A stretch of DNA of 64,000 nt from Mya arenaria (taxonomy: Eukaryota; Mollusca; Bivalvia; Myida; Myidae): contig NC_069136.1 of the NCBI RefSeq assembly GCF_026914265.1, positions 19,089,715 through 19,153,714 of the forward strand. Reading direction: 5' to 3'. The notes beneath the pieces are model-generated. The model had not been told where the DNA came from and made no database searches. It saw nothing but the letters and a program-made list of their open reading frames with translations. Positions 41,101 to 44,100 of this stretch are shown in pieces. The position numbers were made by a program, and so were the translations under genes. Each line of letters begins with the position of its first letter. Within the stretch, counting starts at the first letter, position 1.

Positions 41101-44100
41101 GTTATGGAAATAGAAACTATACATTCATATTGAATTACAATATGTATTTACTGGAACACTGTTCATTGATTTAAATAGGATGACTTTCATTGGTTCCAAC
41201 AATTGTTTTTAAAAAACAAGATTTAAGCTACCTGTCCTGATTTAAAAGCAATGCATTGTATTGCTATGCATAAAACATCATTTGTACTCTTTCTTTAAAT
41301 AAATTAGTTCAAACTTTCATTATATTGTGTTTTTAGTACATAAATGAGAGAGAAACTGCCATCGATCTGCCTAACTGGGATGAGTTGTATTTGTGATCAG
41401 AGATACAATTTTCGTTTCGCTTCAGTTCTCAACCATTACGTCTGATGATAATCAGAAACATTCCTTGCATTCCAGTTTTGTGTGTGTCATATGTTAAGCT
41501 TAGAACTTGAACTTTACAAAGAAGACAGTGTTTTAACGAATCTGATAATTACTTCAAAAAAAAAAAAAAATGATCCTTTTAGTTTAACCTCATCTGACGT
41601 CATGTATCGTGAGTAAGGAAAGTAACTATTGAACAAGTAATCACAATTCATTATTGTTGTATAATTGTAGTTGTCTGGTCTTGGGACTTGAGTCTAATGC
41701 TAGAAAATAGTTTAATATAAGATGGAACTGAAAGGAAATATCAAAGGCAAAACATCACTCACAAAAATGGCATTACGATACTACTGATTGCAAATGAACT
41801 CAGCATTTCAAGTTTTTGAAGCATTGTATGGTAGTGACCCTCAGTCCGCTTTATCAACAAATGTATCCTCTATAGCCAGTTCATGGACTCGACAGCGATT
41901 TGGCATATACTTTGACCTGTCACCTGGAACTCACTACTGGGCAGGCGGGCTCATATCCCGCAAAGCGTTCATACATGTACAGTCTGCATACATATCACTT
42001 CAACTGACCAATTAACTCGTAGCTTTAAATATGGTTCGGAAGAACTATTTAGTGACATACGGAACTATTTGAAGCCGATATTGGGGCGGTACGAGTTGGT
42101 CGTCTCTTCGCTGCAAAATGAATCATTCGGAACTCCTCGGTCATTTTCCATCTTAAACTGCCTCGGATGTGTATGGACGGTTTACAATGTCAGAAATCTA
42201 TACAATTGACTACGCTGCAAGGAGATCGCGTAGTAATTTCAATTTAGCAGTTGAACTTAATGACGTTACTCTTGGGAATCCTAATTATTTATGCAATAAA
42301 ACTCTTCACTGACAATCAATTTAAACCTAGACATACAAACTACACGTAAAACACTACAATAATTAATACTTTAATTAAAATTCTACGAACTTCTTCTACT
42401 GATGTACTAGCATAAATACGAGTTTTTTTTCGGGGGAAAATGGCCGAGGTGTTCCGAATGAAATGACATTGTGATCGTGCTTTGTATAATAGTAAGAGCC
42501 CCCTTTAACAAAGTTTATTTGCAAACGGTAGTACGTCTATTCAAGTAGATACGTTCTCTGTCCGGTCTCTATAACCCCTACCCTCTTGTTATAGTTTTGG
42601 GAGGTGATATCTGACGAGCATGGCGTTGACCCCACCGGCACTTACCACGGGGACTCTGACCTTCAACTGGAGCGTATCAACGTCTATTTCAATGAGGCCA
42701 CTGGTTAGTATTTTTGTCCGTTTTTGAGGCTAGTACTTACGTGACTCGTCACGTTTATTTTGCAGTTCTGGGAGGTGACCGCTGATGAGCACGGTATCGA
42801 CCCCACGGGCACATACCATGGGGACTCCGACCTCCAGCTCGAGAGAATCAACGTGTATTTCAATGAGGCGACAGGTAACGCCGCACACTGTCATAGAAGT
42901 GGGTTTTGATAAATATAATTAGTGATACATGGCCTGTTCACCGCGTATAAAGGGGACCGAAATAAGGGTTACTGAAGCAAATTACAAAAATAAATAACTT
43001 TCTTCCTCAAATGTCTGTCAGTAAATTTCAAGACACACTTAAAGCTTTATCATTATGTAATGCTGCATACATGCACTTAGATCGAGTGTAGTTTAATAAT
43101 CATGTCCGGGTTGTAATTTTGTCATGCAATGAGACATTTTCCAGTTAGTTTGCACATGTATTTGGTAGATAAAGACGACGCGTCGCGTGCTAGACCCACG
43201 TCCCTATTTCATATGCAGTCCTCCTCCGCACTTGACGTCAACCATCAAGGGACTGGCAAATGCATTCGAAACTCCTCGGCCATTTTTATCGAAAACAACC
43301 TCGGATGTATTTGGACAGTTTACATACTCAAACAGCGGTCCGTTTAAGTCCGCTGAAAGAAGATCGCGTAGTAATTTTATTTAGCAGTTAAACTTAATGA
43401 TTATACTCTTGGGAATCGTGATTATGTTTGCAATAAAACACTTCACTTGCAATCAATTTTAACTTGGATCAATAAATACAACTCTAATACAAAAGCACTA
43501 CATTTAATTAATGATAATGATATAATTAAAAAAATACGAACTATTGATGCACCGGCATACATCCGAGGTTGTTTTTAATAAAAATGGCCGAGTAGCTCCG
43601 AATGCGGCATATGCTTATAGTTTATGATAGCTATTCCTGAATAAAGGCATACTAGTTATTGCATAATCAATTTAATTTGATGGCACTTCGGGTATTTCGT
43701 TATTAACTATGACATCTCTCGTTATTCAATCCTTTATTCTGCACCGGCAATGGATTACGAACGATTAAGAAGTGATCGATTTAAGCAAAAGAAGATAGTT
43801 CTAAAACTTTAATTAAAGCAATCCTTTATGTTGCACCGGTAATGGAGTATGAACGATTAAGAAGTGGTCGATTTTAGCAAAAGAGGACAGTTCTAATTAA
43901 AACCTTTGTCTAAAGCAGTTGCTATTTTGTGATTCATACAATGCAGACTTCAGGTGACTCACTGTTACGTCTGGTTATACATTTCGGCGAATTATTGCAG
44001 CAGCATTGATCAGCATGTGCAGCTGGCGCTGCCATTTGGCTAACATCCACATTTTCCAGTTCAATGGAAAACCGGTAAATTGGATTTTAGCAGAAATTGA

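Follow-up and report, generated by a model that had tools for sequence, protein, structure and literature searches.

We analysed a 64,000-nucleotide stretch of the Mya arenaria genome (the window) and found a single beta-tubulin gene in it, lying on the plus strand of C15, one of the 18 contigs of this 1.216-Gb genome. The second coding exon of the gene occurs twice in tandem, as exons 2A and 2B, and three exons common to both versions follow (Table 1). With either 2A or 2B the product has 447 residues; over residues 1-446 it can be aligned gaplessly to a beta-tubulin of solved structure (chain 8snb_AC, Tubulin beta chain). Pfam Tubulin was matched in an exon-level search and Tubulin_C in exon 5, and the product counts as a full-length beta-tubulin. 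A tblastn search within the window found no third copy of exon 2.

Table 1. Coding parts of the beta-tubulin gene and the intron between its two second exons, in window positions.
Feature	Position	Strand	Remarks
Exon 1, coding part	35160..35216	+	residues 1-19
Exon 2A	42595..42703	+	residues 20-55 and one base; I24, S25, V30; donor GTTAGT
Mini-intron	42704..42765	+	62 bp; alignable with the mini-introns of L030, L031, L032 and L035
Exon 2B	42766..42874	+	residues 20-55 and one base; T24, A25, I30; donor GTAACG
Exon 3, common to both versions	44380..44631	+	end placed via the frame continuing into exon 4
Exon 4, common to both versions	44977..45080	+	
Exon 5, common to both versions, including stop codon	45908..46729	+	Pfam Tubulin_C

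Exons 2A and 2B are each 109 bp long and of equal phase, with borders TTATAG/TTTTGG and CCACTG/GTTAGT for 2A and TTGCAG/TTCTGG and CGACAG/GTAACG for 2B. They agree at 87 of 108 bases and in 33 of their 36 residues; 17 of the 21 differences among the 109 bases fall at third codon positions, and the three residue changes from 2A to 2B are I24T, S25A and V30I. Nonsynonymous divergence (dN) between the two is 0.049 by NG86 or 0.058 by LWL85, and synonymous divergence (dS), at 3.2 and 1.8 respectively, is saturated. An earlier note on this DNA had placed both exons, their splice sites, the 62-bp gap, exon 1 and the start of exon 3 exactly, and its tally of about 21 base and three residue differences (at 24, 25 and 30) held on recounting. 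Its view that selection keeps both exons finds support in the low dN (0.05-0.06) alongside saturated dS, and its prediction that double inclusion shifts the frame into a TGA is correct, the stop falling at codon 62 of the window gene. Leaving out both exons breaks the frame too.

Several repeats and one further coding region lie around these exons. Two elements flank the exon pair, at 42123-42461 and 43262-43605, with terminal inverted repeats of 46 nt (76%) and 49 nt (90%); they have end sequence in common and look like a miniature transposon family. Tandem arrays are found just 5' of tubulin exon 1 (32034-34591, a 34-bp unit in about 75 copies), inside tubulin intron 1 (36791-39288, a 35-bp unit in about 68 copies) and at 14470-19456 (a 25-bp unit in about 199 copies). 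At 20500-21976, a 288-aa frame encodes a leucine-rich-repeat protein (Pfam LRR_8) and is overlapped by a second frame without a Pfam match; the two may belong to one receptor gene interrupted by a frameshift or an intron.

Paired and single exon-2 loci in the genome

Searching the genome with the exon 2A peptide yielded 21 matches at 17 loci, counts of loci being lower bounds. Four of these are intact tandem pairs, two have an intact exon beside a decayed partner, and 11 have one match found. The three intact pairs beyond the window lie on C3, near 58.466, 58.480 and 58.560 Mb. Spacing between the paired exons is 62 bp in the window and 63, 62 and 63 bp in the others, and in all four pairs each exon has AG and GT borders, with length and phase as in the window. 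A gene on C14 (22.55 Mb) carries a truncated 2A followed by an intact 2B, and a gene on C8 (0.19 Mb) an intact 2A followed by a damaged 2B and then another damaged copy. One partner is thus gone from each of these two sister genes, which shows that some genes can do without the pair and makes the two usable as natural controls. Beta-tubulin exons 1, 3, 4 and 5 were recognisable in all six genes with a pair or decayed pair, with exon 5 extending past the fetched stretch in four of the six and exon 4 of the C8 gene matched in part.

The decayed region on C8 (L035:4741-5030) holds two successive exon-2B-like copies, each preceded by a piece of mini-intron ending in TATTTTGCAG. On C14, the stretch at 22538500-22547400 (L033) contains beta-tubulin exons 3-5, with exons 1 and 2 absent within about 7.5 kb upstream; the nearest exons 1 and 2B beyond it are part of a neighbouring gene in L034. 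We also looked for relics of an upstream exon 2 at three of the 11 single-exon-2 loci (L036-L038, at most 1500 bases each) and found none there, the scores being 22-26 against a shuffle mean of 26.

A tree of exons 3-5 was built from 17 of 18 loci, with L001 left out (85 of 329 codons). The six genes with a pair or decayed pair group together with a tail-only copy on C14, split from the single-exon-2 loci with a support of 56, and the same group minus the window gene has a support of 100. In a tree of 19 exon-2 sequences (five upstream, five downstream and nine of the 11 single exons), the five upstream exons are split from the 14 others with a support of 79. Among the C3 and C8 genes, upstream exons match each other at 91-102 of 108 bases, as against 83-87 of 108 for the match to their own downstream exon in three genes. 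For the window, 2A matches the other 2A exons at 87-91 of 108 bases and the other 2B exons at 86-91, and identity does not place the window exons. Upstream exons of different genes show a dN of 0.012-0.075, downstream exons of different genes also have low dN among themselves, and dS in exon 3 between the window gene and the others is 1.3-3.0.

The mini-intron between 2A and 2B is more informative about the window pair. Between the window and L030, L031, L032 and L035, 45-47 of its roughly 62 bases match, against 31-37 in the 62 bases 5' of 2A and 3' of 2B (window versus L030-L032). Out of 2000 mononucleotide shuffles, 20, 4, 0 and 0 attained the score of the mini-intron interior against L030, L031, L032 and L035; out of 2000 pieces taken from introns of the window gene, 0, 5, 0 and 0 did so. 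Judged by these alignments, the mini-intron places the window pair better than exon identity does. Since the window mini-intron is homologous to the four others, the pair probably arose before the window gene separated from the other genes. That three more tubulin genes of the genome keep the arrangement suggests that it is old and useful, not accidental.

The mini-intron and its proposed role in splicing

Wherever a mini-intron follows an intact 2A (five cases), it contains a yUnAy motif with the adenine precisely 26 bases away from the end of the intron and 35-36 past the donor; in the window this is intron position 36. This adenine is a candidate branch point by motif match, and each mini-intron has one or two further yUnAy matches, none common to all. 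The final ten bases, TATTTTGCAG, are invariant in all five. The 2A donor is GTTAGT or GTCAGT (GTYAGT) throughout, donors that are weak by general rule, while the 2B donors of the intact pairs are GTGAGT or GTAAGT in three of four, the exception being GTAACG in the window. The shortest of the 27 other introns in nine of these genes is 147 bp long, with exon ends approximate. Together with a proposed steric limit, this length would favour the earlier note's view that a gap of 62 bases is generally too small to be spliced; against that view, flies and worms are among the animals that splice introns about 62 bases long.

For a donor and a branch point to be used jointly, studies of vertebrates and viruses have led to the proposal that steric constraints demand a separation of about 50 nt (PMC7969005). 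The candidate branch point falls short of that limit at 35-36 nt, although a limit drawn from vertebrates and viruses may not hold in molluscs; in a 62-base intron, any adenine 50 or more bases past the donor sits at most 12 from the acceptor. With a branch-point-like adenine only 35-36 bases past the 5' splice site, the U1 and U2 snRNPs would be unable to use both ends of the 62-63-bp intron together, and an intron too short for joint use would leave 2A not joined to 2B. Exon 1 would then join one exon 2, and that exon would join exon 3. In all four intact pairs, double inclusion causes a frameshift and an early stop 74-89 bases 5' of the next junction, and skipping both exons also breaks the frame and gives an early stop. 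Nonsense-mediated decay would clear any double-inclusion transcripts that leak through, given their lost frame and the position of that stop. Together, the sequences point with high probability to 2A and 2B being mutually exclusive alternative exons, which the shortness of the intron would keep apart and nonsense-mediated decay would back up. The likely points of regulation would be the 2A donor (GTYAGT) and the invariant 2B acceptor end TATTTTGCAG, and we conjecture that exon choice is set by how the cell reads these two sites.

We also considered whether a hairpin located between the branch point and the acceptor has a regulatory role, and set the idea aside as unproven. Folding placed a helix at about one place in all five mini-introns, broken up in L032 and L035. 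Fold z-scores of the mini-introns ranged from -1.02 to +0.79; RNAalifold found changes on both sides in none of seven base pairs, and the length of the longest helix was equalled in 356 to 1203 of 5000 shuffles.

The early stop on double inclusion in all four intact pairs could also be read as the function of the arrangement. One exon would then be constitutive and the other a poison exon, retained for its splicing effect and not for protein, with the joining of both leading through frameshift to decay and so setting tubulin dosage. The intron ends are proper, and the intron would be spliceable if the animal tolerates such lengths. A poison exon, however, needs no beta-tubulin protein sequence, and both exons keep one, with dN of 0.05-0.06 and saturated dS; upstream exons across genes likewise show low dN (0.012-0.075), and the steric geometry speaks against joining 2A to 2B. 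We regard this account as improbable.

Intact coding sequence also bears on whether the window gene uses one exon only, its partner being a recent, non-functional leftover. The C14 and C8 genes show that partners can decay, but frame and splice sites are intact on both exons in the window and in three other genes, whereas an exon out of use would not have kept them until synonymous change was saturated; such a leftover is quite unlikely. The genome has many, similar beta-tubulin genes, which might favour a duplication arising as an assembly error or as an allele set in tandem. Against this, there are 21 differences in 109 bases between the copies, only 62 bases separate them on one contig, and equal spacing and a homologous mini-intron recur at three other loci. 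Given copies that have diverged and three loci with a matching layout, an assembly error or a tandem allele is all but excluded, and a chance origin is very unlikely.

Residues that differ between the two exons

If 2A and 2B are mutually exclusive alternatives, the gene would make a beta-tubulin with an exchangeable end of helix H1 and most of the H1-S2 loop, which may tune protofilament contacts. We take residues 20-55, encoded by exon 2, to be this segment; position 60 lies outside the exon. Within the pairs of the other loci, the residue differences are at 30, 51 and 52 (L030), at 25, 32, 48, 51 and 52 (L031) and at 25, 42, 48, 51, 52 and 55 (L032). No single residue distinguishes every upstream exon from every downstream exon: alanine 25 belongs to 2B in the window but to 2A in L031 and L032, and all five 2A exons share F51 with the window's 2B. 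As far as can be read from these sequences, this distribution argues against one fixed meaning of 2A versus 2B.

The earlier note had described a mutually exclusive pair in one gene that would yield isotypes by splicing, differing at the end of H1. The three further intact pairs uphold the pair at the level of sequence, whereas "one gene" has given way to several. Variation at the end of H1 stands for the window (24, 25 and 30), but the other three pairs also vary in the H1-S2 loop. Isotypes by splicing gain weight from pairs in four genes, in a clam whose genome contains, besides, no fewer than 11 beta-tubulin loci with one exon 2 found.

A broader possibility, which we advance tentatively, is that an entire beta-tubulin subfamily makes isotypes by splicing, with an ancient H1/H1-S2 cassette, a length-constrained intron and altered lateral contacts. 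If true, lateral contacts of microtubules (in cilia, sperm tails and nerve, or in the cold) would be adjustable with gene, promoter and C-terminal tail unchanged. Most comparisons of tubulin isotypes have been between products of separate genes, in which promoter, body and tail vary together. Vertebrate beta-tubulin isotypes vary in the residue 20-55 segment as well. A gene that swaps residues 20-55 alone, beside the lateral contact, would isolate the effect of the segment, and the swap would add splicing to an animal's means of varying its microtubules. The conserved 62-63-base intron would also allow a test of the steric exclusion rule in molluscs.

Other organisms and known systems

Protein searches covered the best 120 of 1814, 120 of 1649 and 120 of 776 matches, 300 proteins together, in a collection whose clustering at 90% hides isoforms of one gene. 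Among the 300 matches listed, P0250, which is a frame of 61 aa on an ENA contig of 579,908 bases, is the only one with the upstream-exon signature RIDVYFTEA and so the single hint there of this exon type elsewhere. The VTADEHG of the window's 2B is not unique to the clam, because P0032 (source eukprot) carries it as well. At least 27 proteins among the matches listed contain more than one exon-2-like segment. Such segments are separated by no fewer than 95 residues, save in P0001 (46), and the proteins resemble gene fusions or erroneous gene models. P0001, from the ostracod Notodromas monacha, is a partial gene model with three exon-2-like segments, two of them 46 residues apart, and is possibly a faulty model or another tandem arrangement. 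A DNA pattern scan gave no matches in viral contigs and three in genome contigs, all of which we rejected: L041, which has just one exon 2, is an animal-like beta-tubulin inside a bacterial bin, and L042 and L043 have only nine residues in common with the query.

Among known systems, alpha-tropomyosin exons 2 and 3 are mutually exclusive through steric enforcement. The same is described for exons 4a and 4b of OGDH in part of the article cited for the steric limit (PMC7969005). Like those described for OGDH, the clam exons are adjacent and homologous, with a (candidate) branch point less than about 50 nt from the upstream donor and a constrained intron length. Unlike the acceptor-distant branch points that the same source describes for OGDH, the clam candidate lies 26 bases from the acceptor of a 62-63-base intron. 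Exons Ab and 3 of U2AF1 are likewise homologous and in tandem, and their double-inclusion transcripts are reduced via nonsense-mediated decay, according to the relevant part of one report (PMC5224494); U2AF1 is one vertebrate gene, encodes another protein and has known regulators.

In Ciona, separate genes encode cilia and sperm beta-tubulin isoforms, as an excerpt of one study states (PMC4427456). The clam pair would resemble these isotypes in providing slightly different beta-tubulins for different microtubules, but it would swap residues 20-55 only, whereas separate-gene isotypes of this kind differ in promoter, body and tail. The sections of the WebScipio article drawn on here mention beta-tubulin only for short exons in fungi (PMC3692071). 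Among the matches listed from the open-licence PMC literature, none dealt, by title or start of abstract, with an exclusive or duplicated exon in an animal beta-tubulin gene. Tandem mutually exclusive exons and their steric enforcement are thus already known, and what is apparently new is their place, in an animal beta-tubulin.
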